DNA from: Flavicella sp. | GTDB lineage: Bacteria > Bacteroidota > Bacteroidia > Flavobacteriales > Flavobacteriaceae | Direction of reading: 5' to 3' | Assembly: GCF_029238425.1 (NCBI RefSeq) | Contig: NZ_JAQWGB010000059.1 | Location: 1-34,388 of the forward strand | DNA length: 34,388 nt | Part shown: positions 1 to 26,487 of the stretch, one piece after another | Layout of the letters: each line of letters begins with the position of its first letter | Position numbering within the stretch: position 1 is the stretch's first letter | The notes under the pieces: model-generated | What the model saw: the letters and a program-made list of their open reading frames with translations, nothing else | What the model was told of the DNA's origin: nothing | Databases searched by the model: none | Made by a program: the position numbers and the translations under genes

Positions 1-329
1 TGGGTAGGGTGTCTGTCGTTGTCTCTATCATGACAAGCCAAACATTTTTTTGTTTCTACATCAATGGATCCAAATTCTGTTCCATTTTCCCTAAGTCCCA
101 TTCCATATTGCATGTTGGATTGTACTTGTTGCCAAAGGTTCCCCTCAGCATCTGCATGACAGGTGTTACAAGAGAATTCCTCATGTCCGGAATTCATTGG
201 ACCGATACTTACGTAGCTTTCATTGGATTTTAGCGTCAGTAAAAAAAATAGAATTCCTCCAATAAGAAAACCTGATAGGATTCCTATGGCTTGTCTTTGA
301 CGTAAAGGATTGATTTGAAATTTTGACAT
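1..329 (-). CDS. Multiheme c-type cytochrome, membrane-anchored (partial, 3' end outside window)
   Basis: I translated this by eye from the ATG whose complement lies at 327-329; 109 residues are visible before the window edge. There is a short basic N-terminus, one membrane helix (about residues 14-33), then an exported part with two CxxCH heme sites (CNTCH and CLACH) about 42 residues apart. That is the look of an anchored periplasmic multiheme cytochrome; more heme sites may follow outside. It starts 2 bp after the stop of the ferredoxin reductase gene, so it is the last visible gene of the globin/reductase operon. It probably passes electrons in the periplasm. I cannot assign a family: the NapC/NrfH type is possible but not shown. 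Confidence 0.75.
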   Translation of the reverse strand, partial: MSKFQINPLRQRQAIGILSGFLIGGILFFLLTLKSNESYVSIGPMNSGHEEFSCNTCHADAEGNLWQQVQSNMQYGMGLRENGTEFGSIDVETKKCLACHDRDNDRHPT

Positions 330-331
330 GT

Positions 332-1363
332 TTAACTTGGAATTTCGATGGTAACTTGTTCTGTTTCAGGGTAGGCAACACAAGTCAGTAGTTTGCCATT
401 TTTTACTTCTTCTTCTGCCAATAAGTGACCTTTCATTAATGAAATCTGACCAGAGGAACACTCGGCCTTGCAGCTACTGCACATTCCAGATCTACAAGAA
501 TATGGAATCACAATATTATTTGACATGGCACCTTGTAGGATGGTTTTGTTTCCTGGAATTTTTATTTGATGAGTTTTCCCCTTGTATTTTATGGTGACCT
601 CACTCGTAAGGTTTTTACGGTCGATTTTGAGTTTGGGAGGTTTGAATGCTTCAATTTGAATCATTCCTACGGGTATTCCTTGGGTTTTTAAAATTTCTTT
701 GGTGTTGTTCATATAACCTGCAGGTCCACAGATCATATATTTATGCGCTTCTGAAAAAGCTACTTTATGTCTTTTAAATATTTTTTGGACAATTTCATTC
801 GTAATAAACCCTGAGAAATATTTAGGGTCTGAATTATCACTTAAAATATGTTCGAGTTGAAAACGATCTTCGTGTTGTTTTTGTAACTCTTCTAGTTCTT
901 TTAGAAAAATAATATTTTCTCTGTTTTGGTTGGCGTAGACCATGATTACCTTAGAATTTGGTTCTTCGCTTAAAACAGATTTTAATATAGAGAAGACAGG
1001 TGTGATTCCACTACCTGCTGCAAAAAGTAAATATTGTTGTTCGTTAGTTTTGTTTGGCTCTATAAAAAAACTTCCCATAGGTTTCTCTATGGCAATTTTA
1101 TCACCTTTATGAATATCGCTGTTCAGGTAGTTGGAAATAAGTCCTTTTTCAACTTTTTTCACTGTAATTCTTAAATCGTTATCCGTATATGGATTGCTGC
1201 TAAAGGAATAGGCTCTTTTTTCTACTTGACCATTTAGTGGAATTTTTAAGGTTAAAAACTGACCCGGTTTGTATGTGATCCTGTTAAAAAAACGATTGTT
1301 TTTAAAACAGACTGTCACCGCTTCTTCAGTTTCTTTGATAATATTTGTAATGGTTAACTTCAT
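332..1363 (-). CDS. Flavin reductase with C-terminal 2Fe-2S ferredoxin domain (PaaE/Hmp-reductase type)
   Basis: A 343-residue cytoplasmic NAD(P)H oxidoreductase. The FAD part carries RAYS (residues 50-53), the nucleotide part carries GSGITP (117-122) and CGP (212-214), and a plant-type ferredoxin domain has Cys290, Cys295, Cys298 and Cys328 in the CX4CX2CX29C pattern. The fold order matches PaaE/PaaK and the reductase half of flavohemoglobin plus a ferredoxin. An upstream ATG at 1474 would overlap the preceding membrane gene by 100 bp and add 37 residues unlike the family, so I use the ATG at 1363, 11 bp after that gene. Next to two globins and a membrane protein with two His pairs, it is probably the electron input of the module; its partner is inferred, not shown. 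Confidence 0.9.
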   Translation of the reverse strand: MKLTITNIIKETEEAVTVCFKNNRFFNRITYKPGQFLTLKIPLNGQVEKRAYSFSSNPYTDNDLRITVKKVEKGLISNYLNSDIHKGDKIAIEKPMGSFFIEPNKTNEQQYLLFAAGSGITPVFSILKSVLSEEPNSKVIMVYANQNRENIIFLKELEELQKQHEDRFQLEHILSDNSDPKYFSGFITNEIVQKIFKRHKVAFSEAHKYMICGPAGYMNNTKEILKTQGIPVGMIQIEAFKPPKLKIDRKNLTSEVTIKYKGKTHQIKIPGNKTILQGAMSNNIVIPYSCRSGMCSSCKAECSSGQISLMKGHLLAEEEVKNGKLLTCVAYPETEQVTIEIPS

Positions 1364-1374
1364 AAATTTATTGC

Positions 1375-1854
1375 TTATTTGTAGTAGAACACGGTTCCCA
1401 TATGAAAGAATAGTAAAACAGTAATACACATGGAAATGGCAACATGTGTGATCATCCAGCCTTTGAAAATCCAATCTTTGGTAGATTTAATCACATCTAA
1501 ATTCATGGTACCTAATAGAACATTGACTAAAAACAAATAGCAGAATAATGCCAAATATCCAAAACCAAATCTTGTGCTGTGTAGGTATAAAAGTATGGGA
1601 CTCAGTACACCTATCCATTTGTGAATATTGTTGATAGTAGCAGCTTTGGATTGAAATTTTGGGATGATTCTGCTAAAAGTTAAAAACCATTGAATCAAAA
1701 TAAAAAGAGCCATTACTAAACCAGACCATCTTTTATACATCTCTTGCTGCTGCAAAAGCTCAAGAGATGTAATTTTGATTTGAAATATTTCTTGTATTAA
1801 GTAAATACCGAAAAGACTACTACCAAGTATGGTTATGTATTTTGATTGTTTCAA
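1375..1854 (-). CDS. Small four-helix membrane protein with two His pairs (ferric-reductase/NOX-like diheme b candidate)
   Basis: A 159-residue protein with hydrophobic helices at about 5-22, 43-60, 80-112 (long, may split) and 131-155. Four histidines stand out: His78 and His92, and His137 and His151. Both pairs are 14 residues apart, the spacing that holds two stacked b hemes in the ferric reductase/NADPH oxidase membrane domain. The usual fused FAD/NAD domain is absent, but a separate FAD/2Fe-2S reductase is encoded 11 bp downstream. It is shorter than the family's usual six-helix core. I infer that it carries electrons from the reductase across the inner membrane to the c-heme proteins encoded on either side. 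Heme binding is predicted from spacing only. Confidence 0.6.
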   Translation of the reverse strand: MKQSKYITILGSSLFGIYLIQEIFQIKITSLELLQQQEMYKRWSGLVMALFILIQWFLTFSRIIPKFQSKAATINNIHKWIGVLSPILLYLHSTRFGFGYLALFCYLFLVNVLLGTMNLDVIKSTKDWIFKGWMITHVAISMCITVLLFFHMGTVFYYK

Positions 1855-1866
1855 AGGAATTGTATT

Positions 1867-2673
1867 TTATTTTAATAAAACAGCCATTGTTTCAGCAGAG
1901 GCTAATTCACGTACACTATCTAAGAATACTTCAGGGCTTGGTAAGTATTTTCCACCAGCAGATGGCCACTTTTCACCAACAACAGGCTTGTCACTTGATT
2001 TGAATGCTGCGATCTCAGCCAGGTAATCCTTGTAAACCGCAACAGTTCCGTTTCTGTATGCTTTTAGTACTGCAATTGTTGCATCGTAACTTAAAGAGTC
2101 AGTAGGATATTGCCAAGTAGTAGCTCCCATTACATCACCAAGTTTCCAATCGTCTTTAGTTGTTTGCTCGTGTTTGTTGTGACATGAGACACATGCGCCA
2201 GCACCGGCTACATCGGCAAACATTGCCGTGTATATTTTTTGATCTTCATCATAAAAATGCTGTGGTTTTCTATCCTTTTTAATTTGTTTGAATAGCTCAC
2301 CTTGTTTTCCTTCAAACTTATTGGCTTTGTTGATAGGGAAATCTGAGCCTAAATACAATCCAAGTGGTACTTCGCTTTTTCGAATATCATTGGCAATTCC
2401 TCTCAAGAATAAGGCAGGTAATGGCCCGGCTTCAACATCTTCTTTTTGCCAGTCTTCATCAAATTTTAAACCTTGTTTTTTTCCGGCTCCAACAATTGCT
2501 TTTGTGTAAAGGGTTCTAGTGATGTCATTTTCTTTAGACACCATCTCTAAAACTTCGGCAACTGAAAATTCTAATTTTTCTTTGGCAGCGGTTTTGCTTT
2601 TTTCTGGAACTCCTCCACATGAAATTAGTAACGCTGGTATTGTGATTATGATTGTGTAAATTAATTTTTTCAT
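1867..2673 (-). CDS. c-heme lipoprotein, DUF3365/Tll0287-like
   Basis: A 268-residue protein with a lipoprotein signal (Cys19 after LLIS) and one CxxCH heme site at residues 161-165, followed by the NKHEQTTKDDWKLGDVMGA stretch typical of the DUF3365/Tll0287-like domain. Members are single-heme sensors or electron-transfer domains, often in signalling proteins; here the domain stands alone and is anchored to a membrane lipid. It lies between the globin genes and the membrane gene (33 and 12 bp gaps), so it belongs to the same transcript. Likely role: periplasmic redox partner or ligand-sensing subunit of the module. The family call is firm, the role inferred. Confidence 0.82.
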   Translation of the reverse strand: MKKLIYTIIITIPALLISCGGVPEKSKTAAKEKLEFSVAEVLEMVSKENDITRTLYTKAIVGAGKKQGLKFDEDWQKEDVEAGPLPALFLRGIANDIRKSEVPLGLYLGSDFPINKANKFEGKQGELFKQIKKDRKPQHFYDEDQKIYTAMFADVAGAGACVSCHNKHEQTTKDDWKLGDVMGATTWQYPTDSLSYDATIAVLKAYRNGTVAVYKDYLAEIAAFKSSDKPVVGEKWPSAGGKYLPSPEVFLDSVRELASAETMAVLLK

Positions 2674-2706
2674 TTGTCGTTGATTTTGGGGATTGTTATG
2701 TTATAT

Positions 2707-3192
2707 TTATTCGTACGCTGCTTCGATCATTACGCCGGCCATCACTGTGTAAACTTTTGTCCATGCTTCTTTTACTTCTGGAGTAAAAGCTTCACCTAAA
2801 CCAGCTTCTAGAGTTCCTAATAATGCAGCTCCTACAGTGTCGTAATGAGATTTTTCAACTTTGTATGCAACATGTCTTTTTCCAAGATCTTGTAACACTG
2901 GGATCAATTTATCTAAGGCAGAAAGTCCTGCTACAGCACTTGCCAGCATGGTCATCAATTTGTTTCCTTGCTCAGCCATGGCTCCTTCTTTTTTTGTAGG
3001 GAAAAGCGGCTTCAATTTAGGGTCCAATTCAAAAAGTTTGGTGTAAAAAATTTCTGCAGCTGCAGGAGCAATTGGTTTTACAAGTTCAAAAGAATCTTGT
3101 ACTAATTTTGTTGTGATCAAATCAATTGGTGCTTCTTCAACTGCTGTGTCTGATTCGGATTTACTGAAAAGGTTTTTGAAAATTTTTAACAT
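2707..3192 (-). CDS. Single-domain globin (bacterial hemoglobin / flavohemoglobin globin type)
   Basis: A 161-residue globin without a reductase domain. Aligned by eye to the E. coli Hmp globin domain: B10 Tyr50 (in EIFYTKLFELDP), E7 Gln75, proximal F8 His107 (in LGKRHVAY), and the HYDTVGAALL and EAW segments. These residues fit an NO-dioxygenase or oxygen-binding heme pocket. I take the ATG at 3192; an ATG at 3270 would overlap the upstream globin gene. A 25-residue N-terminal extension, MLKIFKNLF then an acidic stretch, is not part of the globin fold and looks amphipathic. With the reductase gene nearby it could form a two-piece flavohemoglobin that turns NO into nitrate. Confidence 0.88.
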   Translation of the reverse strand: MLKIFKNLFSKSESDTAVEEAPIDLITTKLVQDSFELVKPIAPAAAEIFYTKLFELDPKLKPLFPTKKEGAMAEQGNKLMTMLASAVAGLSALDKLIPVLQDLGKRHVAYKVEKSHYDTVGAALLGTLEAGLGEAFTPEVKEAWTKVYTVMAGVMIEAAYE

Positions 3193-3224
3193 GATTTTTG
3201 TTTTTAGAGTTCGTAAGAATTGAT

Positions 3225-3632
3225 TTATAATTGTATTGTTTGTGATATTTTTTGGAAATATTGAAACCACGCAAGTTCCACTTCAAGGGTGAAATCTTCC
3301 TGAAGACTATTGGATAATGACGCCATGAATGCAGTCCCAATAAAATCAAAAAAGGTTGGTTTTAATTGTTTGGATTGAATGACTTTTCCCAAGTTGTACA
3401 AAATTGGTTTCAATTGTTTGAAGTTGTCTAGGTAAGAAACCGTAGTTGCAAGGATATTCATAAAAGCCGCACCAAATTCTTGAATCGATTCCTTAGAATT
3501 TGAGAAATAAAGTCCTTTTAAACCTGGATCAAGCTCCAATAGTTTATCGTAAAAATAAGTCGCAGTTCCTTGTCCTAAAGGTTTTAATTTCTTAAAAGAA
3601 GATTGTACTAAAAGTATGGTGTTGGTTTCCAT
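3225..3632 (-). CDS. Divergent globin paralogue lacking heme-ligand residues
   Basis: A 135-residue protein clearly related to the next gene: YFYDKLLELDP matches EIFYTKLFELDP, and LGK, the FDFIG region and the ELAW segment align. B10 Tyr28 is kept, but the proximal F8 position is Ile85 (LGKVIQ in place of LGKRHV) and the E7 position is Phe53 rather than Gln. No nearby His can serve as the axial ligand; the protein has no His at all in that stretch. So it may not bind heme in the usual way, and could be a sensor, chaperone or partner of the normal globin. The reading frame is intact, against simple decay. First gene of the operon, 32 bp before the normal globin. Confidence 0.8.
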   Translation of the reverse strand: METNTILLVQSSFKKLKPLGQGTATYFYDKLLELDPGLKGLYFSNSKESIQEFGAAFMNILATTVSYLDNFKQLKPILYNLGKVIQSKQLKPTFFDFIGTAFMASLSNSLQEDFTLEVELAWFQYFQKISQTIQL

Positions 3633-3828: not shown

Positions 3829-4272
3829 ATGAATGGACCAAAAGAAAGCTTGACTAATATATATGTCAAAAAGTTAAATGGAGAATCTATTGATTTGTTG
3901 GAGGAATATAGTGGACAAGCTCTGTTATTGCTGTTTTATAACAATCAATGTTTGGGCTGTACTGGTAGAGCGATTCCTTTAGCCTATGAATTTAGTTTAG
4001 AGTTTAAAAACATTCAAGTTGTAGGAATTCATTCAAATTTTTCAGGTGAAGTAGTTTCTGAAAAAGAGATCAAAAGTATTTTTACGTCAGGCGAAGTTCC
4101 TTTTCCCATTTTCTTGGATGACCAACATGAATTGTATGATTTTTTTCTATCGGAAGGAACTCCTTATTGGGTGTTGATAGATAAAAACGCTCAAGTGTTT
4201 CGATCCATTTTTGGATCCCAAAGCAATTCTAAAAATAGATTGTATTATGCTTTGGAAAATTTAGCTTCTTAA
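3829..4272 (+). CDS. Thioredoxin-like / AhpC-TSA family protein
   Basis: A 147-residue protein with a thioredoxin fold: strand ALLLLFYNNQ, redox motif CLGC (Cys41, Cys44), and a cis-Pro loop at GTPYWVLID (Pro112). It lacks a signal peptide, so it should act in the cytoplasm, reducing or forming disulfides or reducing peroxide. It is read away from the globin operon, sharing a 196-bp upstream region, and converges on the porin gene with a shared terminator after its stop. The link to the globins rests on position only. Substrate unknown. Confidence 0.78.
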   Translation: MNGPKESLTNIYVKKLNGESIDLLEEYSGQALLLLFYNNQCLGCTGRAIPLAYEFSLEFKNIQVVGIHSNFSGEVVSEKEIKSIFTSGEVPFPIFLDDQHELYDFFLSEGTPYWVLIDKNAQVFRSIFGSQSNSKNRLYYALENLAS

Positions 4273-4338: not shown

Positions 4339-5616
4339 TTACAAAAACTTTGGTTGTATAATTAACATTAACCAAGCCCAGTTCTGAGTGTCTTTTCCAA
4401 CAACTTCACTAGGTTCGAAGAATTGAGAGTATCCACCAACTAGTTTAAATTCTTTGAATTGTTTAGCTAGTACTAAGTCCAATTCAGAACCTAAATCCTT
4501 TCCTGCTAGTCCAACTGCTCCTGTGTTTATTCCTGGTGCGCTTGCAACATCTTCAACTTCTGTAAAGTAGTGTCCTGTTAATGTAACAGCAATACCAGAA
4601 ACTTTAGTAGAAAGAGATACTTGTAAGTCATTTAAACCACCTGCATTACCATGATTTCCAACATAGAATCTATCCATTAAACCATTGAAGGCATGGTTTG
4701 TTCCGTATAATGGGAAGAATGCTGCAGAATCATCAGTTCTACCAGATATAGTTTCGTATCCTGCACCTAAAGTTAACTTGTCTGAGAATTTGTATTTAGC
4801 AAGTACACTAGCTAAGTATGCTCCTTTTACGTCTAAAACTGCTCCTGTTGGAGGGGCTAATCTTTGACCTTCTTGGAAATATAAGTTTGCTGTTAAGTTT
4901 AATCCACCAGTTTTATATCCTGCGTGAAAACCTCCTGTGAACAATGTAGCTTTTGGGTCTCCAGCTACTCTACCATCTTGGTATGTGTTTACTAAAGCTA
5001 AAGCAGATATATTCAATTTACCATATTTTTTATTAGCTCTTAATAACCCCATGTCTCTGTATGTGAAAAGAGTAGAGTTGTTGTAAACAGGTCCTGTTGA
5101 TGCGTTTGTATTCAAAGCTCCACCTAAATCTAAGCTGTATCCATTGTTTAGGTATTTAAGAATCGCAGCATCGTGCGTTCTTGCTTGCTGAGCCCAACCT
5201 AGACCTCCTAAGATTCTTTGATCGTCATAAGAAATTGGTTGACGTCCAACTTTTAAGCTTGTAGATTCAGCCAATTTAATGTCAGCCCAAGCTTCTTGAA
5301 TTCTTAAGTTTCCATTACCAGCAGCAGAAATTTGCTGACGATCTCCGAATAAAAACACTTCTTGTAAACTTGTATATAAAGTGTAAGTTTCAGCCTTGTA
5401 AGTTGCTTTTATAGCTGCTCTTACAGAAGTAGAAATAAATCCTTCTTGACCTTCAACTGCTGTAGTAGAAGGCAGGGTTCCGGGTGCCTTCGTAAAGTTT
5501 CCTCCGTTTCCAAAGTATTCTGTTCTAGGTCTAAATTCTCCGCTTAAAGAAAATTGGGCCATTAAAGATGATGTCGCTAACATCAATAAGGCTACTAGGG
5601 TAAATTTAATCTTCAT
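4339..5616 (-). CDS. Outer-membrane porin, alginate-export family type (probable nitrate/nitrite porin)
   Basis: A 425-residue protein with a Sec signal peptide (cleavage after SSLMA, near residue 20), then FSLSGEFRPRTEYF and many alternating strands typical of a 16-18 strand barrel ending in a C-terminal aromatic. The start and pattern (GEFRPR, KVGRQPISYDDQRILGG) match the alginate-export porin family, which in Bacteroidetes often sits beside nitrate transport genes. It is downstream of nrtD but has its own gap of 142 bp and a -7 box. Probable role: passage of nitrate or nitrite through the outer membrane. The substrate is inferred from the neighbours. Confidence 0.82.
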   Translation of the reverse strand: MKIKFTLVALLMLATSSLMAQFSLSGEFRPRTEYFGNGGNFTKAPGTLPSTTAVEGQEGFISTSVRAAIKATYKAETYTLYTSLQEVFLFGDRQQISAAGNGNLRIQEAWADIKLAESTSLKVGRQPISYDDQRILGGLGWAQQARTHDAAILKYLNNGYSLDLGGALNTNASTGPVYNNSTLFTYRDMGLLRANKKYGKLNISALALVNTYQDGRVAGDPKATLFTGGFHAGYKTGGLNLTANLYFQEGQRLAPPTGAVLDVKGAYLASVLAKYKFSDKLTLGAGYETISGRTDDSAAFFPLYGTNHAFNGLMDRFYVGNHGNAGGLNDLQVSLSTKVSGIAVTLTGHYFTEVEDVASAPGINTGAVGLAGKDLGSELDLVLAKQFKEFKLVGGYSQFFEPSEVVGKDTQNWAWLMLIIQPKFL

Positions 5617-5681: not shown

Positions 5682-5758
5682 TGCGTTTGATAACTTCTAA
5701 AACATGATTTATGGCAGTTTTTAACCTCTTTTTGTGTCGTTAAGTTACGTAAAAATAC

Positions 5759-6565
5759 TTAGTGTTCTAAGAAGTCAATCATGTGTTTACGGTATTTGTA
5801 GTAATCGTCATGTGCCAGTACTGCTTTTCTTGATCTTGGACGCTCGAACTCAATAGGTAATATGTCTCCAATTTTTGCTCTTGGTCCACTAGTCATCATT
5901 ACAACTCTATCTGACAAGAAAATTGCCTCATCTACATCATGAGTAATCATGATAGCAGTAATTTTTTCTTTATTCCAAATTTCAATTAGTACATCTTGCA
6001 ATTCCCCTCTGGTAAGAGAATCTAGCATTCCAAAAGGTTCGTCTAATAATAAAACTTTGGGTTTGATGGCAAAGGCACGTGCAATACCAACTCTTTGTTG
6101 CATTCCTTGAGATAACTCAGAAGCTCTTTTGTGAAAAGACCCGTCCAATCCAACTTTACTTAGGTAGTATTTGCAGATGTCTTCTTTTTCTTTTTTACTT
6201 CCGTGAGGAAATACTTTTTTAACACCAAGCATTACATTTTCCATTGCGGTCATCCAAGGCATTAAACTTGGAGCCTGAAAAATAACACCTCTATCTGGTC
6301 CTGGACCTTTGATAGATGATCCCAATACTGATATTTTTCCTCCAGATATTTCGTTTAAACCAGCAATCATTGAAAGCATAGTAGTCTTACCGCAACCAGA
6401 GTGTCCAATGATGGTAATAAATTCTTCTTTTTTTACTTGTAAATTTAAATCTTCCAAAACTACATAGTCACCCTTTGGAGTAGGATACACTTTTTTCAAG
6501 TCCTTTAAGTCTAGCATTACATCCTTGCTAGCAAATTTTTCTTGTAATATCGTTTTTGTTTCCAT
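5759..6565 (-). CDS. nrtD: Nitrate ABC transporter ATPase, NrtD-like
   Basis: A 268-residue ABC ATPase of the nitrate/sulfonate/taurine group. It has Walker A GHSGCGKTT (54-62), Q-loop FQAPSLMPW, signature LSQGMQQR (151-158), Walker B VLLLDEP (171-177) and switch His209 in ITHDVDEA, so all catalytic residues are present. It lies 18 bp after the sister ATPase gene and is the last gene of the nrtABCD run. The signature has Q in place of the first G, which is tolerated in this group. Powers nitrate (or nitrite, cyanate) import with NrtB. Confidence 0.9.
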   Translation of the reverse strand: METKTILQEKFASKDVMLDLKDLKKVYPTPKGDYVVLEDLNLQVKKEEFITIIGHSGCGKTTMLSMIAGLNEISGGKISVLGSSIKGPGPDRGVIFQAPSLMPWMTAMENVMLGVKKVFPHGSKKEKEDICKYYLSKVGLDGSFHKRASELSQGMQQRVGIARAFAIKPKVLLLDEPFGMLDSLTRGELQDVLIEIWNKEKITAIMITHDVDEAIFLSDRVVMMTSGPRAKIGDILPIEFERPRSRKAVLAHDDYYKYRKHMIDFLEH

Positions 6566-6583
6566 TTTTAAAGTGCTTAATGT

Positions 6584-7441
6584 TTATTTTGGAGCTCTAA
6601 AGTCCCATCTTAAATCTTTTGGTTGTAAGTCTGGTAATTCATAATTTGTTTCTGAATTTCCAGATCTTTCGTTTCCGATGTCCATTAGATATTCAATAAT
6701 GGCATTCCTAGTTTTTTTGTATTCTGGATTGTCATTCAATTCAGTTTTATCTCTAGGTCTGTCAATGTTAATTTTAAACTCAGGACCTAAAGTCGCTTTC
6801 GGACCTGGTCTAAGAGGAATAATTCTATCCGCCATATAAATACCTTCGTCAACATCGTTGGTAATTAATAGGGCTGTTCTTTTGTTTTTATTCCAAATAT
6901 TTAAAATCTCATCTTGAAGATTTCCTCTGGTCAAAGCATCTAATGCTCCTAATGGTTCGTCCATGATAATCATTTCAGGATCCATAGCTAATGCTCTGGC
7001 AACCGAAACTCTTTGACGCATTCCTCCGGATAACTCTTTAGGTCTTTTATGAGTGGCATGACTTAAGCTTACCATGTCAATATATTCCTTGATGCGTTTG
7101 TCTAAAAATGAATTGTTTTCTTTTGGAAACGCCTCTTTTACTGCCATTTCAATGTTTTGATAAACAGTAAGCCAAGGTAAAAGAGAATAGTTTTGGAAGA
7201 TAACACCACGTTCATGACTAGTATCTTCTACTGGTTTCCCTTTAAATAGTACTTCTCCTGAAGTTGGTTTGTCTAATCCATTGATTAGGTTTACCAAAGT
7301 TGTTTTACCACTTCCGGTAAATCCAACAATTGCTACAAATTCACCCTCTTCAATATGTAAATTTATGTTGTCTAAAACCTCGGTAACATTTTCGTTGCTT
7401 CCGAAAGATTTTGATATGTTGTTTAGTTCTAAATAGGCCAT
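6584..7441 (-). CDS. nrtC: Nitrate ABC transporter ATPase, NrtC-like, with Asn at the switch-His position
   Basis: A 285-residue ABC ATPase: Walker [10 protein letters not shown] (40-48), Q-loop FQNYSLLPW, signature LSGGMRQR (137-144), Walker B MIIMDEP (157-163). The switch position reads ITNDVDEG, with Asn195 where active ABC ATPases have His. It lacks the C-terminal NrtA-like domain of cyanobacterial NrtC; instead there is a short tail of about 60 residues after PGPKATLGP. With NrtD it likely forms a mixed pair in which one ATP site is degenerate. The gap to nrtB upstream is 64 bp. Confidence 0.88.
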
Positions 7442-7505
7442 TTGCTTTATTTTAAAGTTTGAATGTTTGTTGAGTTTGTTTGATCAAATCAACTTTTACG
7501 CATTC

Positions 7506-8642
7506 TTAAATTCCTTCGTTTTTATCGAATGAAATAAATTTTTGAATGGTTAACATTATTCTGTCTAATAAGAAACCAATGAAACCGATGACGAACATGG
7601 CAACAATAATTTTTGAATTTGAATCCATGGCTCCGTTTTGGAATTCTTCCCAAACGAAAGAACCAAGTCCTGGACTCTGTGCTAATAATTCAATTGCAAT
7701 TAATACCATCCATGCTACAGAAAGTGTAATTCTTAAACCGGTAAAAATCAACGGTAAAGAGGCTGGTAAGATTACTTTGAATATCTTTTGGAAAGTACCA
7801 AGTTTTAAAACTTTTGCTACATTTAAATAGTCTTGGTCTACTGTAGATACTCCCATGGCAGTGTTTACCAAAGTTGCCCACATAGAACATAAACCAACAC
7901 TGATAAATGAAATTACAAAAGAAGTGTCTCCTGTAGAATCTTTTGTAAGTGTTTTTACAATCATAAAAACAAGTAACAACCAAACTACTGGTGATACAGG
8001 TTTTAAGATTTGAATCAACCAGTTGAAAGAAGTTCTAAGCGTGTCGCTTAGTCCAATGATAATTCCGATTGGTGTTGCAATCAATAAGGCTAATAAAAAA
8101 CCGGCAAAAACGGTTTTGATACTTGTTTTAATTTGATCAACAAATGAAGGTCTACCAGTATAGGTAATAGGGTCTTTCCCTTGAGCAACTCTTTTTTCAT
8201 TTAAAGTGGCTGTTTTTTCTTTAAAAGCAGCTTTGTCTTTACTGATTTCTTTATGGTCTTCTAGTAAAACTAAGAAAGAGGCCCAAACTTGAGAAGGAGA
8301 GGGAAGTGTATTTGGCTGGCAAGATGAATCTCCAGATTCAATACATGCTTTCACTTTATCTGCTTCAGCTTGTCCTTGGTCTTTTAATGTTTTTTCAATC
8401 TTATAGTTTGCTTCTGTGTTGTATAAAGACTTAGAACCAGTATACCATACCCCTAGAAATAATAAAACCGATGCAATCGGTGCAATTATTTTTTTTAGTA
8501 CTTCTATGGTGTTTTTTTTAGAATCTTCTCCACTAGCAAGACGTACTAGAGGCTCTAGAAACCCAAGACCTATGAATCGTAATACTTTTATGATAGAATC
8601 TTTCATTTTGTTGTCGTTTAATTTGTTGAAACTTTGTTTCAA
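7506..8642 (-). CDS. nrtB: Nitrate ABC transporter permease, NrtB-like
   Basis: A 378-residue inner-membrane permease with one N-terminal helix (about 52-68) and a C-terminal core of five or so helices (from about 168). The EAA loop that docks the ATPase is near residues 275-305 (VAKVLKLGTFQKIFKVILPASLP). The family is usually near 280 residues: here about 100 residues between the first helix and the core are enlarged, with a possible disulfide pair (Cys100, Cys108) and a charged helix. Another in-frame ATG at 8606 would drop 12 residues. A strong hairpin separates it from nrtA, which may set the ratio of binding protein to permease. Confidence 0.88.
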   Translation of the reverse strand: MKQSFNKLNDNKMKDSIIKVLRFIGLGFLEPLVRLASGEDSKKNTIEVLKKIIAPIASVLLFLGVWYTGSKSLYNTEANYKIEKTLKDQGQAEADKVKACIESGDSSCQPNTLPSPSQVWASFLVLLEDHKEISKDKAAFKEKTATLNEKRVAQGKDPITYTGRPSFVDQIKTSIKTVFAGFLLALLIATPIGIIIGLSDTLRTSFNWLIQILKPVSPVVWLLLVFMIVKTLTKDSTGDTSFVISFISVGLCSMWATLVNTAMGVSTVDQDYLNVAKVLKLGTFQKIFKVILPASLPLIFTGLRITLSVAWMVLIAIELLAQSPGLGSFVWEEFQNGAMDSNSKIIVAMFVIGFIGFLLDRIMLTIQKFISFDKNEGI

Positions 8643-8653
8643 ATGATTTTTTG

Positions 8654-8696
8654 AAAACTAACACTTGAAAGAATTGTTGTTTCAAGTGTTAGTTTT
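8654..8696 (-). terminator. Strong intercistronic hairpin between nrtA and nrtB
   Basis: A perfect 17-bp inverted repeat (AAAACTAACACTTGAAA and its complement) with a 9-nt loop, in the 69-bp gap between nrtA and nrtB. On the minus strand the 3' arm ends in TTTT, then C and A residues, so it is a weak or partial terminator rather than a full stop. It may protect the 3' end of nrtA mRNA and lower expression of the membrane and ATPase genes. Confidence 0.75.
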
Positions 8697-8711
8697 AAAT
8701 ATTGTAATAGA

Positions 8712-10091
8712 TTATTTGCTGTCTTTATTACCAATTTTAAAGCTGTTGATGTATCCAATAGGATCTTTTGCATCGTAGGTTTTTCCATCAATAAAGTCAG
8801 TAGTTGCAGGCTTGTATCCGTCAGTTGAAGGAATATCTGTTGCTGGGATTTTACCTTCTTTAGCTAATAAGTTAGCAGCTTTCAACCAGATATCTGGACG
8901 GTAGATGTCTTTAGCTTTCTCAGCATACCATGCAGCTGGTTTTTCTGTTGGGATTTGTCCCCATCTTCTCATTTGAGTTAAGAACCATACAGCATCTGAA
9001 TAGAATGGGTAAGTTGCATTGTATCTGTAGAATACGTTAAAGTCCGGCATTTCTCTTTTGTCTCCTTTTTCAAATTCAAATGTACCTGTCATTGAGTTAG
9101 CTAATACTGCTTCATCAGCACCAACGTATTGAGACATTGCAAGAATTTTTACAGCTTCTTTTCTGTTTCCTGGAGTATCTAACCATTTTCCAGCTCTAAT
9201 TAAAGCTTTTGTTACAGCTACCGCAGTGTTAGGGTATTTCGCTACAAACTCTTTAGTCATTACAAATACTTTTTCTGGGTTGTTTTTCCAGATGTCATAG
9301 TTTGTAGTTACTGGAACACCAATTCCTTTAAATACAGCTTGTTGGTTCCATGGTTCTCCAACACAGTATCCGTAAATAGTACCTGCCTCTAAAGTCGCTG
9401 GCATTTGTGGCGGTGGCGTTACAGATAGTAATACCTCTGCGTCAATTTGTCCTTGGATATTGTTAGCAGAATACATTCCAGGATGGATTCCTGCAGCTGC
9501 CAACCAATATCTAATTTCATAGTTGTGCGTTGATACGGGGAATACCATTCCCATTTTAAATGCTTTACCATTGTTTTTGTAATCAGTAATTACAGGCTTT
9601 AAAGCTTCCGCGCTAATTGGATGTACGGGTTTACCGTCAGCTCCTTTTTTTACATGAGGCTTCATTCCTTCCCAAACATTATTAGATACTGTAATTCCAT
9701 TTCCGTTTAAGTCCATAGAGAAAGGAGTTACTAATTCAGCTTGACGTCCAAATCCAGCTCCAGCTGCAATAGGTTGACCTGCTAACATATGAGAACCGTC
9801 TAATTGTCCGTCAATAACTCGATCTAAAATGTTTTTCCAATTTGATTGTGCTTCTACAGAAACAAATAATCCTTCATCTTCAAAAAATCCTTTTTCTTTG
9901 GCGATGGCTAAAGGTGCCATATCCGTTAATTTGATAAAACCAAAAGTCAATTGTGGTTTTTCAATCTCTAAGCTTGCAGTTTTTGCTTGTGGTTGAGCAG
10001 TTGTTTCCTTTTTCTTTGTGTCTTTCCCTCCACATGAGATTGCAAGAATCATACTCGCAAAGGCTGTAATTTTAATGGCTGTTTTTTTCAT
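8712..10091 (-). CDS. nrtA: Nitrate-binding lipoprotein, NrtA-like
   Basis: A 459-residue substrate-binding protein with a lipoprotein signal (Cys20 after LAIS). The mature part starts with a flexible [13 protein letters not shown] linker, then the NrtA/CmpA fold: [41 protein letters not shown], and [28 protein letters not shown], which are typical of the nitrate/bicarbonate branch. It captures nitrate in the periplasm for NrtBCD. First gene of the operon; a -7 box and an upstream palindrome (10150-10194) form its promoter. Nitrate rather than bicarbonate is favoured by the narK and nirBD neighbours. Confidence 0.92.
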
Positions 10092-10357: not shown

Positions 10358-11056
10358 TCAAGAGTTTAATGTGTGTTTAGAAATTTCATTTTTAAGAGAA
10401 TCTAAATTTTTAATTCCTAGTTTTCTTCCTTTAGCGTTGATAAGGTTTTGTTTTTTAAGACCAGAGAGGATTCTAATGACTTGTTCTTCTGTGGTTCCGG
10501 AGTATTCCGCATATTCTTTTCTACTTAAGGATACGTTAAATAAACCATCTTTAGAACCAAATTTCTTATCCATATAGATAAGTGAATCGATAACCCTTTC
10601 TTTTACGGACATTTGTGCTAGTTTTCGAACGCGAGTTTCACTTTCGCTAAGTTCATCAGCATAAAATAACATAAAATCAAATGTCAGTTCGGGAATGTTT
10701 AATAGAATAGATTTTAAGTCTTCTTTAGAGAAGTAGCATAAGGTAGAGTCCTCTAATGCTTGTGCAGAGATAGAGTAATATTTTGAAGAGCCGAAACCAC
10801 CTCTATGTCCTATTATGTCACCATCTTTCGCAAATCGGACAATTTGCTCGCGCTCGTCAGCTCCTGTTTTTGCTACTTTTACTTTTCCTTTATAGGTAAA
10901 AAATAATCCATGTGCAGGGGTGCCCTCCATGATAAACTGTTGAGATTTTTTACATTTAATCGTGTGTTTATTCTCTAAAACAGTTAGGATTTTATCGTTT
11001 AAACTATGTTTTTTGATAAGGCAATTTAAGTTTTCGCATTGTGTACAATCTGCCAT
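10358..11056 (-). CDS. Crp/Fnr-family regulator with FNR-like cysteines (paralogue 1)
   Basis: A 232-residue transcription factor: a cyclic-nucleotide-binding-like beta roll (about 30-120), a long dimer helix, and a winged helix-turn-helix (about 170-215, recognition helix in GTTEEQVIRILSGLKK). Cys4, Cys7, Cys12 (CX2CX4C) and Cys107 sit where E. coli FNR has Cys20, Cys23, Cys29 and Cys122 (STLCYFSKEDL aligns with FNR's Cys122 segment), so a 4Fe-4S cluster sensing O2 or NO is plausible. Cys35 is also shared with the second copy. It lies between nrtA and narK and is very similar to the protein at 21992-22696. Likely activates or represses nitrate and nitrite genes. Confidence 0.88.
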   Translation of the reverse strand: MADCTQCENLNCLIKKHSLNDKILTVLENKHTIKCKKSQQFIMEGTPAHGLFFTYKGKVKVAKTGADEREQIVRFAKDGDIIGHRGGFGSSKYYSISAQALEDSTLCYFSKEDLKSILLNIPELTFDFMLFYADELSESETRVRKLAQMSVKERVIDSLIYMDKKFGSKDGLFNVSLSRKEYAEYSGTTEEQVIRILSGLKKQNLINAKGRKLGIKNLDSLKNEISKHTLNS

Positions 11057-11249: not shown

Positions 11250-12590
11250 TTATGCTGCTTTAGATAAAGCATCCAATCTGTTTTGTTCGTCAACAGCAGC
11301 TTTTTCATCTGCTGGCGAGAATTTAATTAAGAATCCTAAGAAACCAACTGCAGATACAATAAATCCGAAAGTAAAGAAGGCATCTTGTAAAGTTGCACCG
11401 CTACGTAATAAGTATTGTGCATACAACACGGCTCCTACATTTCCACCTGCTCCTACAATTCCAGAAACTGCACCTAAAGCTTTTCTGTTGATGAAAGGTA
11501 CTACTGAGTAAGTTGCTCCTTCTGCCATTTGAACAAATAAAGAGAAGAATACCATACTTGCAATGGCAAAACCTAATACATTCATTTGAGAGAATAATAA
11601 TAACGCAATTCCTTCTGCGATTACTACATATACTAATATTTTAACACGTCCATTCAGTCCTGAGTTTTTAGAGAATTTATCAGCGATCCATCCTCCTGTA
11701 GATCTCGCAAATAAATTCATGGCTCCAAAGAAAAGAACTACAAAACCTGCGGCTTCTTGGCTAAGGCTAAATTTTTCTTGGTAATAAGTAGATGCTTTAC
11801 CAGTAACAAATAATTCCATTCCAAAACAACCTGCATACATTGCAAATAAGATCCATACTCTTTTGTCAGAAGCGGCAGCTACGAATAAACTTTTTTCACC
11901 TTTTTTAGATTGAGGTCTTTCTTCTGGAAGATCAGAATAGTTTCCTTTAGGACAATCTGTAGTGTATTTCCAGTATAAGTATGCTACAAATAACATGATA
12001 ATTGCAGGAATGTACATTGCGATTCTCCATGATGCGGTTGCTTCAGCTAAACCGAAAGCGGCTACAGCAGATGCAATCAATGGCATCGCGGCGTTGGTAA
12101 CACCACCACCAAGGTTACCCCATCCTGCAGTTGTTGCGTTTGCAATTCCAATTACATTGGGCGCAAACATTACTGAGGTGTGGTATTGGGTGATTACGAA
12201 TGAAGCTCCAATCACACCTATCGCTAAACGAGAAAGTAAATAAGACTCCCATGAGTAAGCAAAAGAAGAACCAGCTACTGCAATAGCTCCAAATATCAAA
12301 AGGTATACATAACTTTTTCTTGGTCCGATTTTATCACAAAGGTTTCCTATTCCTAGTCTTGCGAAAATTGTAACCCCTACAGACGCGATAAAAGCAAGTG
12401 TTGTTTGTGCTTTTGTCAAATCTAAATCTGGTGCGATCGTTGATTTCATTAACGGTGCGTGAGAGAACCATCCAAAGAAACAAAGAAAGAAAGCAATCCA
12501 ACTTAAGTGGAAAGTTCTCATTTGAACGGATTTAAAATCTAATAGGTTGATTTTTGTTGCTTTTTCGTTTTGTAGCTGTACTGTTTTCAT
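11250..12590 (-). CDS. narK: Nitrate/nitrite MFS transporter, NarK/NasA type
   Basis: A 446-residue protein with about 12 membrane helices, of usual NarK length. It has the nitrate-porter glycine-rich segment GNLGGGVTNAAMPLI and a second GIVGAGGNVGAVLYAQ, plus RLGIGNLCDKIGPRK and WIADKFSKNSGLNGR loops. It moves nitrate or nitrite across the inner membrane. I use the ATG at 12590 (MKTVQLQ); an ATG at 12623 lies inside the -7 box region and would add 11 unlike residues. It has its own promoter (12621-12665) and terminator. It overlaps in role with NrtABCD: high-affinity import by ABC, high-capacity import or export by NarK. Confidence 0.92.
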   Translation of the reverse strand: MKTVQLQNEKATKINLLDFKSVQMRTFHLSWIAFFLCFFGWFSHAPLMKSTIAPDLDLTKAQTTLAFIASVGVTIFARLGIGNLCDKIGPRKSYVYLLIFGAIAVAGSSFAYSWESYLLSRLAIGVIGASFVITQYHTSVMFAPNVIGIANATTAGWGNLGGGVTNAAMPLIASAVAAFGLAEATASWRIAMYIPAIIMLFVAYLYWKYTTDCPKGNYSDLPEERPQSKKGEKSLFVAAASDKRVWILFAMYAGCFGMELFVTGKASTYYQEKFSLSQEAAGFVVLFFGAMNLFARSTGGWIADKFSKNSGLNGRVKILVYVVIAEGIALLLFSQMNVLGFAIASMVFFSLFVQMAEGATYSVVPFINRKALGAVSGIVGAGGNVGAVLYAQYLLRSGATLQDAFFTFGFIVSAVGFLGFLIKFSPADEKAAVDEQNRLDALSKAA

Positions 12591-12620
12591 TTGTGTTGGT
12601 TTTATGAAAAAATTATACGG

Positions 12621-12665
12621 CAAATATATATCGATAACTCAGTTTGTTTTGTGTTCTTAATCCAA
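12621..12665 (-). promoter_or_regulatory. narK promoter
   Basis: On the minus strand a -7 box TATATTTG lies at 12621-12628, 30 bp before the ATG. An imperfect dyad with TTG and CAA ends (12649-12665) is centred 29 bp upstream of the box. The dyad is weak on its own; the distance matches that at other promoters here. The rest of the gap to 12871 is A/T-rich and holds no gene or clear terminator that I can see. Confidence 0.4.
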
Positions 12666-12871: not shown

Positions 12872-13882
12872 TTATTTATTGAATTCCCATCCAAAACCAC
12901 TTGAGAAAATGTAGTCATATTGATTTCCTTCAATCGCAGGTTCGTTATCGTAATTCAAAGTAAAGGAAGTTTTAATATAAAAGTCATAAGGAAGGTCATA
13001 TTTCATAGTTAAGTTGTAATCGACCCTGACCCTTCCGAATTCTGAAATAGTTGGACTGACTTTAACATCGGTTGTCAAACTTATATCTTCAAAATTATAC
13101 ATGTTTAAGTTGGCGTTGATAAAAGTTTCCGTAGAGTTTTTGTTTAAACTTTCATCAACATATGTCTCAAAGTTGAATGCTATACCTGTAGAAAGTCCTA
13201 AATATAATTTTGGAGTACTCGCTAATAATTTCCCCATACCAATATTTGGAGTATAACGTCCATGAAGCGCTTGTTCAGTATTTGATAAATATGTTAATTC
13301 ACCAATTAAATACCAGGTTTTAGAGATCAAACGTCGAATGTCTGCCTTAGCATCTGTTCTTTTTATATCTGCGACTGAGTCTTGTTGAGAGTTGAGTATG
13401 TTTAAACTACCATTGGTAACCCATAATTCACCCACATAACCGAGTGTTGCATTTACGGTAGTTTGTCTTTTATCCTGTGCTTTTGTAAAGTCGTATCCAA
13501 AATCCACACTCCCAGAAAATCTTTTTCGTCGATCTTCACTGACCTCTTGAAATGCTATTATTTCAGAAATTTTAAAAGTCTCAACAAGGTTTTTGTTAGT
13601 CTCAATAGTAACTATTCCAGGTTTTATGGTTCTTACTTTTCCAAAACGTCGTCGGCTTTTGGTCAAAGTAACAATACATTTTTTGTGTATGTAGATACTT
13701 GTAATTTTATCGAATTCTATTTTAAAGTCGGAATCACTATAGCTTGTACTAAACACCAAAACACCTATATCATAGCTTTCCACCAAACCCACTAAAATAT
13801 CTTTGTTTTTTAGTTTAAGGGTGTCCCGTTGTCCATGTGCAATTGAACTTATTAACACTAAAAATAAAAGAATGCGTTTCAT
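12872..13882 (-). CDS. Outer-membrane barrel protein, DUF481-like
   Basis: A 336-residue protein with a signal peptide (cleavage after IAHG). An N-terminal part of about 90 residues has two short beta repeats (DTLKLKNKDILVGLVESYD and KSRRRFGKVRTIKPGIVTIETN), then a DUF481-type barrel rich in alternating strands and ending in FGWEFNK. It is the last gene of the envelope operon, 21 bp after the 699-residue protein. Such proteins sit in the outer membrane; function is unknown. Confidence 0.75.
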   Translation of the reverse strand: MKRILLFLVLISSIAHGQRDTLKLKNKDILVGLVESYDIGVLVFSTSYSDSDFKIEFDKITSIYIHKKCIVTLTKSRRRFGKVRTIKPGIVTIETNKNLVETFKISEIIAFQEVSEDRRKRFSGSVDFGYDFTKAQDKRQTTVNATLGYVGELWVTNGSLNILNSQQDSVADIKRTDAKADIRRLISKTWYLIGELTYLSNTEQALHGRYTPNIGMGKLLASTPKLYLGLSTGIAFNFETYVDESLNKNSTETFINANLNMYNFEDISLTTDVKVSPTISEFGRVRVDYNLTMKYDLPYDFYIKTSFTLNYDNEPAIEGNQYDYIFSSGFGWEFNK

Positions 13883-13903
13883 GTGTATTACTAATATAAT
13901 TTT

Positions 13904-16003: not shown

Positions 16004-16008
16004 AATGT

Positions 16009-16638
16009 TTATTTAAGTCTGTATACTAATCCACCGCTAAATCCACCGATTAAGATGTTACTTGAACCTGAAACTCCAGCACCACCGGTTCCAAAATAAA
16101 CTCCTCCCCATTGGATAGGAATCATTAAGTTACCTTGTACGTTTAAACCCCATTGTTCATTAAACATATAATTTACACCTGCTTTGATGGTACCAGCTAG
16201 ATACCATTTAGTGTCAATAGGATAATCAAAAATGTATTCATTTGCATTTTCAGAATTAAAAATAGCAGCTCCGATACCACCTCCAATAAATGGTCGCAAT
16301 TTGTCTTTGGTGATGTATTTAGAGGCACCAATAGTAATCCAATCCATATATAGATCTGTAAGACGATCCGTTTGACCATTTTCTCTTCGAGTGATGCTCG
16401 ATGAGTGACGTGTATAACTAACTTCAGTCATAACCCCTTGGAACATATCAACACCTAATGTAAAACCAAATTGATCGCTCTCATTGATTTTTACATAATT
16501 GTTGTATCCATAGTTTGATTTTGAACCAAATTGGTAACCGTATGACGCAGTCAGTTCTACAGTTTGAGCCTGAGTTGTTTCTGATATCAATGCAATCACC
16601 ATGATGCATAGTGATTTGAATAGAATTGATTTTTTCAT
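16009..16638 (-). CDS. Outer-membrane beta-barrel protein
   Basis: A 209-residue protein with a signal peptide (cleavage near TTQA) and about eight alternating strands ending in FSGGLVYRLK, like the small OmpA/OmpW-size barrels. It has aromatic girdle pairs such as FGFTLGVDMFQG. Lies 5 bp before the 699-residue gene. I do not recognise a specific family. Probably inserted in the outer membrane. Confidence 0.7.
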   Translation of the reverse strand: MKKSILFKSLCIMVIALISETTQAQTVELTASYGYQFGSKSNYGYNNYVKINESDQFGFTLGVDMFQGVMTEVSYTRHSSSITRRENGQTDRLTDLYMDWITIGASKYITKDKLRPFIGGGIGAAIFNSENANEYIFDYPIDTKWYLAGTIKAGVNYMFNEQWGLNVQGNLMIPIQWGGVYFGTGGAGVSGSSNILIGGFSGGLVYRLK

Positions 16639-16657
16639 AATATTAGATTAGAAATGA

Positions 16658-17137
16658 TTATTCTACTTTGTCAAGTTCACCAATAAACGGAACGTTTTCG
16701 TATACCGCAGTTTTAGATAAACTTAAGAAGTAGTTTTCAATTTGTAAAAACTGTGCAGCGGCTCTTGGTCCACCTGCTTTTTTCAATTTCTTGAAATATT
16801 TTTCAATATTTTTAGCGTTGTTTTTGCTTTGCTTTAAACTTCTTTTACAAAGTTCTTCAATTTTATCATTTGATAGACTTGTATAGTTTTCAGCATAGTC
16901 AGTGATCAAAGCAATTCTTTCAGAACGTAATTCTTTTCTGTCCGCTTCGTAAGCTTTGTATATTTCCCAAAAAGCATCTTTGTTTTCAGAATCAACAGTG
17001 ATAAAATCTTTTACGATTGTAAGTTTATCCACTCCAAATAAAGCTTGGAAAAAGTCGGTGTCATTAGTGTCTTGTTGTGCAAGCATAGCTAATGGAGATA
17101 AAATACAAGCGATAATTAGTGTACAGATTTTTTTCAT
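16658..17137 (-). CDS. Small secreted helical protein, unknown
   Basis: A 159-residue exported protein (signal cleaved after LAMLA, near residue 20). The mature part is almost all helical and charged, with KAYEADRKELRSERI and SKNNAKNIEKYFKKLKKAGG, comparable in style to periplasmic Spy/CpxP-like helical proteins, though I see no LTxxQ motif. Not recognised. It lies between a barrel gene and a membrane gene in the operon. Confidence 0.65.
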   Translation of the reverse strand: MKKICTLIIACILSPLAMLAQQDTNDTDFFQALFGVDKLTIVKDFITVDSENKDAFWEIYKAYEADRKELRSERIALITDYAENYTSLSNDKIEELCKRSLKQSKNNAKNIEKYFKKLKKAGGPRAAAQFLQIENYFLSLSKTAVYENVPFIGELDKVE

Positions 17138-17159
17138 GATTTCGTTTTTTTATTATTGT

Positions 17160-17663: not shown

Positions 17664-17670
17664 CTTTTTC

Positions 17671-18252: not shown

Positions 18253-18270
18253 ATGAGTTTTCTAAAATTA

Positions 18271-18951: not shown

Positions 18952-18962
18952 GTCAGTAGGTT

Positions 18963-19637: not shown

Positions 19638-19703
19638 TGTTTATTTATTTTGGGTGTTTCTGTAATTAATTAAATCTATATTTTAATGAAAATACTTATG
19701 ATG

Positions 19704-22723: not shown

Positions 22724-22766
22724 CAAAATTACGTAAAATAATTAACAAACTACGTATTAATACTTA
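22724..22766 (-). promoter_or_regulatory. Promoter of the second Crp/Fnr gene with TACGTA hexamers
   Basis: On the minus strand TAATTTTG (22724-22731) matches the -7 box and is joined to a TACGTA hexamer (22730-22735), as at nirB. A second TACGTA is at 22751-22756, inside an imperfect 16-bp palindrome (22751-22766, core GTATTAATAC) centred 27.5 bp upstream of the -7 box. Confidence 0.5.
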
Positions 22767-26440: not shown

Positions 26441-26487
26441 TAAAAGATTCAGCACCCATGTGTTGGATCTTTTCAATTTTTAGAACT

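Follow-up and report, generated by a model that had tools for sequence, protein, structure and literature searches.

A conserved globin, reductase and heme-protein gene set in the nitrate metabolism of Flavobacteriaceae: a possible split NO dioxygenase with a transmembrane electron relay

What could unite globins, a separate NAD(P)H reductase, a small membrane protein and exported c-type heme proteins in one compact gene set? The question is raised by six minus-strand genes at positions 3–3632 of a stretch of 34,388 nucleotides from Flavicella sp. (NCBI RefSeq assembly GCF_029238425.1, contig NZ_JAQWGB010000059.1). The window, as the whole stretch is called here, is an entire contig (C7) of a draft genome (G000) of 215 contigs. 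In order of transcription the six genes are:

glbA, 3225–3632, minus strand: 135-residue globin paralogue (PF00042, 30.9 bits, cut-off 22)
glbB, 2707–3189, minus strand: 160-residue single-domain globin with an ATG start (PF00042, 72.1 bits, cut-off 22)
tll, 1867–2673, minus strand: predicted exported c-heme lipoprotein (Tll0287-like domain PF11845, 35.5 bits, cut-off 24.1)
mem, 1375–1854, minus strand: 159-residue membrane protein with a TTG start (Ferric_reduct PF01794, 23.3 bits, below the cut-off of 28)
red, 332–1363, minus strand: NAD(P)H reductase with an ATG start (FAD_binding_6 PF00970, NAD_binding_1 PF00175 and Fer2 PF00111, each above its cut-off)
cyt, 3–329, minus strand: 5' fragment of a multiheme cytochrome c (all cytochrome c matches below cut-off because of the truncation)

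The six genes are part of the nitrate metabolism of the host family. The reading that we favour, tentatively and short of confidence, is that they form one operon of a Flavobacteriaceae nitrate-to-ammonium regulon that handles nitric oxide (NO) and redox stress from nitrate and nitrite reduction by means of a split NO dioxygenase and a transmembrane relay from NAD(P)H to c hemes. An earlier note on this DNA had proposed such a relay with a role in NO detoxification or sensing; its interpretation is supported in part, and the link to a nitrate regulon was absent from it.

The gene set, its conservation and its proteins

The gaps along the series from glbA to cyt measure 35, 33, 12, 11 and 2 bp. 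The earlier note had described six minus-strand genes with gaps of 2–33 bp, a difference of start-codon choice, and had placed the parts on separate genes, in agreement with the six open reading frames and their domain matches. The set looks like a conserved operon and is probably read as a single transcript.

A search of the family with tll (199 genomes, nearly all one per genus) gave a match in 16, our genome included, and the 15 other carriers all show the same order of globin, tll, mem, red and full-length cytochrome. A scan of named contigs found 109 relatives, and the locus counts given here cover the best 80 of them; the sets of 15 and 80 overlap, several contigs being in both. In these maps, where gene labels are best BLAST hits and unlabelled frames shorter than 120 or 110 residues are omitted, the tll-mem-red-cyt core lies on one strand in 80/80 loci and a globin stands directly upstream of it in 76. 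Gene order and core are conserved far beyond chance, and adjacency in other genomes, which the earlier note had set as the test of its proposal, is not rare. The titles of 79 loci name Flavobacteriaceae or genera that we take to be members; the remaining one reads Bacteroidia bacterium.

In a sample of 395 genomes of the phylum, the Tll profile matched our genome and one remote frame of 402 residues, and the Mem profile our genome and three weak places. Only our genome gave a strong match to either profile, and many genomes of the same family in this sample lack the module too. One of the weak places (L116) contains stops and was dropped.

The other two (L118, 5224–9288, and L119, 5616–9714) come from two families elsewhere in the phylum and form a distant parallel to the module. 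They encode a protein that by eye is cNMP-binding/ferredoxin-like, an H-X13-H membrane protein and an N-anchored decaheme cytochrome, followed by FHA-, NAD(P)-binding- and kinase-like genes; hhalign aligned the Mem profile over 31 columns (prob 88) and the cyt profile over 142 columns (prob 97). This parallel possibly belongs to a wider kind of conduit running from a donor through b hemes to multiheme c proteins.

The globin heme pocket was inspected in 86 domains from the window and the 80 loci, tandem globins being cut at residue 145. Tyr B10 is present in all of them, and 84 keep Phe CD1, Gln E7 and His F8; the two exceptions are GlbA of the window and the first globin of a close relative (L033). 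In the alignment of GlbA, Ile stands in place of the proximal His F8, Phe in place of Gln E7 and Tyr in place of Phe CD1. The upstream globin copy of Flavicella marina (L032) keeps the CD1, E7 and F8 residues, and F. sediminum (L034) and L035 have one globin each. GlbA is thus a lineage-specific paralogue with a heme site that has changed or is being lost, and GlbB is the core globin. The globin pair of the earlier note therefore holds as two globins but not as a canonical pair. GlbB has Tyr B10, Gln E7 and His F8, as has the globin domain of flavohemoglobin, in which the roles of these residues are known. It matches the NCBIfam model of NO-inducible flavohemoproteins with 79.5 bits over residues 26–157, below the whole-protein cut-off, and no reductase is fused to its 160 residues.

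These residues also bear on the idea of a globin that carries or buffers oxygen and adjoins the membrane arm through shared low-oxygen regulation only. Four loci keep the core without an upstream globin: in three of Aquimarina type a tandem globin follows the core on the other strand, and in L106 no globin was found in the stretch examined, upstream or downstream. Against such a role stand the Gln E7/Tyr B10 pocket, as in flavohemoglobin, and the adjacency in the other 76 loci, and we regard it as quite improbable. The tandem globins (L057, 6941–7822; L065, 14308–15186; L073, 14400–15275) belong to these Aquimarina-type loci; each is a single chain of two domains that ends in WWKFW.

A plain replacement of the flavohemoglobin Hmp by the module was considered and rejected. 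Globin frames of at least 400 residues, length being the only mark by which Hmp-like proteins were scored, are absent from 13 of the 16 carriers; they occur in 3/16 carriers vs 8/183 other genomes (p 0.047, towards carriers).

Red carries its domains in the order FAD, NAD and C-terminal 2Fe-2S, a PaaE/Hcr-like order, and its matches to the models for PaaE and NADH oxidoreductase fall short of the curated cut-offs. The FAD, NAD and 2Fe-2S motifs that were looked for are present in 80/80 relatives. The cytochrome of the window is cut by the contig end after its first 109 residues, which hold two of five CxxCH motifs and are 77% identical to residues 1–109 of the 237-residue protein of F. marina; no further match to the remainder was found in the same assembly. 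In the relatives the full-length protein has 232–249 residues and five CxxCH motifs (80/80), so that the multiheme cytochrome of the earlier note stands for the family and only as a two-motif fragment for the window. By analogy with these relatives, Cyt is predicted to be an N-anchored pentaheme cytochrome of the membrane; in a comparison with the NapC/NrfH type, its profile (A1) matched NrfH (2j7a) weakly (E 0.0016). Several Aquimarina loci (L096, 13168–13536, and similar ones) encode, immediately behind cyt, a small monoheme c lipoprotein-like protein together with ResB/ResC-type genes for cytochrome c maturation.

Tll has a lipobox, read by eye as LLIS-C, and a single CxxCH in 80/80 loci. 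Beyond the lipid Cys and the CxxCH motif the mature chain holds no Cys in any of the 80, and Tll therefore lacks the axial Cys of the sCache_heme redox subgroup. In a second look at structural matches with VIA, the low-confidence model (predicted local distance difference test score, pLDDT, 68) fitted best to Tll0287 (5b82; Z 7.2, root-mean-square deviation, rmsd, 4.1 over 133 aligned residues), followed mainly by sensor domains that are presumably of Cache type; the Tll profile (A2) gave no PDB sequence match at E up to 1. Tll thus shares with the Tll0287/sCache_heme proteins a PF11845 match above cut-off, the single CxxCH and the stand-alone form, has Tll0287 as its best match in the second look, and differs from those described in a 2026 preprint (PMC12889525) in being a lipoprotein, in lacking the axial Cys and in belonging to an electron-transfer operon. 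That preprint reports slow NO release from a Cys-less relative (PMC12889525). Tll, stand-alone yet naturally Cys-less, falls between the two classes as they are described there. Since no Cys fills the sixth position, its heme is a plausible NO site.

Mem contains two histidine pairs, H78-X13-H92 and H137-X13-H151, and the four residues are invariant in 81/81 sequences. Five long helices are predicted, compared with the six transmembrane helices of the ferric reductase/NOX superfamily, and the pairs fall in predicted helices 65–83/85–92 and 127–157. Across the loci the protein is 157–189 residues long and without a fused dehydrogenase, a separate red gene being present in 80/80. From this pattern Mem is predicted to be a transmembrane electron carrier with two b hemes, a short four-His domain of the ferric reductase/NOX type. 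In the published descriptions, NOX/ferric reductase domains have H-X12/14-H in helices three and five (PMC5676040), and the heme ligands of SpNOX are H69/H129 and H83/H142 (PMC11564096; H83 is written H82 in PMC11031084). Mem resembles SpNOX in helix order and His spacing, and an offset of 8–9 residues would put the SpNOX ligands on the Mem histidines. In the second look, residues 37–159 of Mem lay on residues 28–150 of SpNOX (8qta) with Z 8.5 and rmsd 2.9 (113 aligned, 18% identity).

Both NOX/FRE/SpNOX and MsrQ-Fre share with Mem the H-X13-H pattern in the third and fifth long helices and an FNR-type donor, and the MsrQ-Fre and Mem-Red pairs are both split into a membrane part and a separate donor. 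Mem differs from the long NOX/FRE form in having no fused dehydrogenase, in its conserved c-type heme partners and in scoring below the Pfam cut-off. The short bacterial ferric reductase domain (FRD) proteins reviewed in PMC3591440 are mostly without one or two of the four histidines, all of which Mem has, and in YedZ and STEAP, as described there, Arg replaces the first heme His, a position that is His in 81/81 Mem sequences.

Association with nitrate genes

NasA was counted when full-length and at least 64% identical, with three candidates scored per genome and the Fisher counts tallied by hand; 45 genomes were positive (one with an internal stop), and a partial 43% match in G067 was excluded. 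It is present in 15/16 tll carriers vs 30/183 non-carriers (Fisher p 3.5e-10). The sole carrier without it is our own incomplete genome, in which the contig stops where L032, L033 and L035 have LuxR and NasA. Full-length NrfA follows the same trend (11/16 vs 16/183, p 1e-7). Since NasA and NrfA associate with the module and NirK does not (see below), the module follows nitrate-to-ammonium reduction, not NirK denitrification.

The neighbourhood points the same way. The genes that flank the module in the relatives are of the Nap-type, NrfHA, NasA, transporter or molybdenum-cofactor kind, and at least one of NapA, NasA, NirB, NirD, NrfA, NrtA and NrtB is labelled in 70/80 loci. Seven genomes of the other ten loci were checked (all except those of L064, L067 and L077): five have a full-length NasA, L086 a partial one and L079 a 36% match. 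A globin-nitrate link can also exist without tll: G180 gave no match to tll, yet a globin (45% identity) stands about 0.1 kb before its NasA gene, in the same orientation.

The same associations feed the main rival to NO defence. Here the module would be a supply line: Red would draw electrons from NAD(P)H, and Mem, the pentaheme cytochrome and Tll would pass them on to the periplasmic nitrate or nitrite reductases (Nap, Nrf), which would thereby become partly independent of quinol, with the globin only guarding against leaked NO. A NapA-type operon or nrfHA lies directly upstream in part of the loci. NapA-type proteins (777–793 residues) were found in 11/16 carriers, seven of them above the cut-off of a model that was run on carriers only. 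Together with the 11 carriers of full-length NrfA, at least one of the two enzymes is present in 13/16, both in our genome (NapA on C132, NrfA on C90). MsrQ is a precedent, a ferric-reductase domain described as feeding a periplasmic molybdoenzyme (PMC5676040, PMC11031084). Conversely, three of the 16 carriers (G110, G173 and G177) gave neither an NrfA match nor a NapA-type match other than NasA, and the Nap operon that was examined (L018) has a quinol module of its own. On this balance the supply line seems rather unlikely as the principal function.

The L018 operon (13266–19774) is of Nap type and holds two multiheme cytochromes besides its DsrO/DsrP-like quinol module (NF045798 DsrP above cut-off, DsrO just under).

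A shared operator-like palindrome

Palindromes of various sizes were sought in the 250 bp ahead of the first globin, in the window and in 76 loci (77 regions). TAAGTA-N4-TACTTA was found in 54/77, its centre 36–57 bp before the globin start; in 20 shuffled sets any 6-mer reached at most 4. Over the 80 loci (1.57 Mb) there are 130 exact sites, 128 of them outside open reading frames; one shuffled control had none. The gene that follows most closely is a globin in 54 cases, NrtA in 31, Crp in 19, NasA in 8 and NarK in 5, which together account for 117/130; the remaining sites precede tll (2), the porin (1) or unlabelled genes (2), have no gene within 350 bp (6) or lie inside open reading frames (2).

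A relaxed form, TAMGTA-N4-TACKTA, was scanned through whole genomes, with a reversed pattern as control (2–5 sites per genome). Sites within the nitrate region numbered 6/8 in G159, 5/7 in G152, 5/7 in G177, 6/11 in G061 and 4/8 in our genome, where all four lie in the window; in G002, a genome of the same genus, 5/10 lie within 1588–1608 kb of C12, around NasA and NirB. The window itself has four matches to TAMGTANNNNTACKTA, vs 0.02 expected by chance, and they are located before the genes for the porin, NirB and the second CRP/FNR regulator. The features concerned and their neighbours are:

3829–4272, plus strand: AhpC/TSA-type redoxin, divergent from glbA
4339–5616, minus strand: Alginate_exp-type outer-membrane porin of the nitrate transport cluster (PF13372, 34.0 bits), a neighbour that recurs in many relatives
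5746–5761: operator-like palindrome TACGTAAAAATACTTA, read in the sequence about 130 bp upstream of the porin start
5759–10091, minus strand: nitrate-type ATP-binding cassette (ABC) transporter by domain matches, its substrate taken from context, with ATPases at 5759–6565 and 6584–7441, permease at 7506–8642 and NMT1_2 binding protein at 8712–10091
10358–11056, minus strand: CRP/FNR-family regulator (PF00027 and PF13545) with an N-terminal C-x2-C-x4-C...C motif
11250–12623, minus strand: major facilitator superfamily (MFS) transporter (PF07690, 107.3 bits), named NarK-like from context
21992–22696, minus strand: second CRP/FNR-family regulator, with an operator-like palindrome upstream at 22751–22766
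23264–23289: a pair of operator-like palindromes that overlap, ahead of the gene for nitrite reductase
23322–25838, plus strand: nitrite reductase, named NirB from its domains (NIR_SIR, Pyr_redox_2, Fer2_BFD)
26001–26378, plus strand: Rieske protein, named NirD-type from its domain (Rieske_2)
26458–27075: DUF4202 gene (262.8 bits) directly after NirBD

In several relatives an unlabelled gene of similar size to the DUF4202 gene (195–204 residues) lies between NirD and a histidine kinase. The GC skew of the window is positive from about 22 kb to 34388, except at 30–32 kb, roughly coinciding with the change of gene strand.

The spacing of the palindrome, 5-4-5, is FNR-like and may be compared with TTGACnnnnGTCAA, given in PMC1274295. 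In 56/80 loci the gene immediately before the first globin, and on its strand, encodes a CRP/FNR protein, and the N-terminal four-Cys motif is present in all 60 Crp-labelled proteins of the 80 loci. A CRP/FNR protein may bind the palindrome, and the module is apparently switched together with the nitrate-use genes that share it.

The nearness of the regulator invites a sensory explanation, in which Tll binds NO and the chain of cytochrome, Mem and Red reports the periplasmic state inward, acting with the FNR-like regulator. Besides this linkage and the four-Cys motif, it could draw on the occurrence of Tll0287 domains in sensor proteins (PMC12889525). However, Tll has no signalling domain, and its conserved partners are electron carriers and not transducers, which makes a sensor a slim prospect. 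Slimmer still is a ferric reductase or NOX-like function, with Fe(III) or O2 reduced outside the inner membrane, useful as this might be given the high iron demand of nitrate assimilation. Mem does resemble SpNOX and, below cut-off, Ferric_reduct. Its conserved partners are nevertheless a five-heme cytochrome and a c-heme lipoprotein, and most exact operator sites precede nitrate-cluster genes, iron genes not having been part of that search.

Proposed mechanism and relation to known systems

In the favoured reading, NO defence, GlbB would be the half of a split flavohemoglobin that turns NO and O2 into nitrate in the cytosol, an NO dioxygenase to which Red would return electrons from NAD(P)H. 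Red may also, or mainly, feed Mem, the two His-pair b hemes of which would carry electrons across the inner membrane. Outside, the pentaheme cytochrome would accept them and keep the c heme of Tll ferrous, as a plausible periplasmic site of NO binding or turnover. The direction of electron flow, the pairing of Red with both GlbB and Mem, the transfer from cytochrome to Tll and NO as the substrate are what we infer from the gene content and the analogues. Two branches would thus leave one NAD(P)H reductase, one to the globin and one via Mem to the exported c hemes. Precedents exist for each donor step: Flp has been proposed as the donor to Bjgb in Bradyrhizobium (PMC4724949), FNR-like proteins have been suggested as donors for single-domain globins in Gardner's review (PMC3820574), and Fre has been proposed to feed MsrQ (PMC5676040, PMC11031084).

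In its most specific form, this reading becomes a two-compartment NO defence served by one NAD(P)H reductase: NO dioxygenation by the cytosolic globin and, through a split NOX-like diheme protein and the pentaheme cytochrome, an open-site periplasmic c-heme lipoprotein kept reduced that captures or turns over NO during nitrate-to-ammonium reduction. To the full version we assign a low probability, lower than to the supply line.

Several observations weigh against NO defence or its parts. Mem stays under the Ferric_reduct cut-off (23.3 vs 28 bits), and Foldseek found no match in the PDB at E 0.001 or better for either Mem or Tll; the Mem profile (A3) gave no PDB sequence match at E up to 10. 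Talin, designed and other helical bundles outscored diheme proteins in the second look, so the fold alone does not place Mem. Its assignment consequently rests mainly on the His pattern, and the membrane protein of the earlier note is diheme-like only in that pattern and in a modest similarity of fold. For Tll, the preprint assigns redox, not NO, roles to stand-alone Tll0287 proteins, and a Cys-to-Ala variant of one of them still releases NO fast (PMC12889525), so lack of Cys alone makes no NO site. Red may serve Mem alone and not GlbB, and the Nap-type or Nrf enzyme of the 13 carriers is a possible acceptor instead. No biochemistry was found for any part of the module.

On the genomic side, NirK, a dedicated NO maker, occurs (above cut-off) in 2/16 carriers vs 35/183 other genomes, which is not significant, and NO supply by NirK as the driver of the module was rejected for this want of association. 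Nitrate assimilation does not need the module, since 30 NasA genomes have no tll match. As to the palindrome, 26/80 loci have no exact site nearest the globin, none was found upstream of glbA in the window, and the Flavicella relatives L032–L035 have no site before the globin with up to two mismatches. The putative co-regulation by the palindrome thus has no support upstream of the Flavicella globin, and transcription of the module in this genus may start elsewhere or be under other control.

The full gene set was not found described in the open-licence PMC literature (titles and abstracts). Within that scope, the earlier note's statement that no such system was known holds for the full set. 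It passes over the narK-bjgb-flp-nasC operon of Bradyrhizobium, a published counterpart of half the set, where protection against NO from nitrate assimilation comes from a single-domain globin together with a flavoprotein on a chain of its own (PMC4724949). Bjgb-Flp is the closest known system. It shares with the module a single-domain globin of the Hmp/Vgb/Cgb type and a separate NAD(P)H flavoprotein, and its region, like that of Flavicella, has NarK and ABC nitrate transporters, with the nitrate reductase alongside; in the operon as described, no membrane b-heme protein, Tll0287 lipoprotein or pentaheme cytochrome is mentioned (PMC4724949). Its control is by NasS-NasT according to the same account, whereas here palindromes adjoin a CRP/FNR-like gene.

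Hmp resembles the module in its FAD/NAD reductase and in the globin residues Tyr B10, Gln E7 and His F8; the module differs in its separate chains, the added C-terminal 2Fe-2S domain of the reductase and the extra membrane and c-heme partners. The NssR-Cgb system of Campylobacter is alike in its CRP/FNR-family regulator, single-domain NO globin and FNR-like 5-4-5 palindrome, and unlike in its half-site, TTAAC; no reductase or membrane arm is mentioned in the descriptions used (PMC1274295, PMC4724949). The NO role put forward in the earlier note fits a globin that shares its operator, and its genomes, with nitrate assimilation, while the acceptor and the NO chemistry are our extrapolation.

The interest of the module lies in its strict conservation, its clean regulon and its unexplained membrane arm. 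Tll offers a natural test of NO binding by Cys-less stand-alone sCache_heme proteins, and the shared palindrome a handle on the nitrate regulon in Bacteroidota. According to a 2024 paper, MsrQ alone among the FRD proteins of prokaryotes has a clearly identified physiological role (PMC11031084); if the favoured reading is true, a short four-histidine FRD protein would gain such a role. It would also account for the handling of NO in Flavobacteriaceae, which are abundant in marine particle and algal-bloom communities, during nitrate assimilation and nitrate-to-ammonium respiration.

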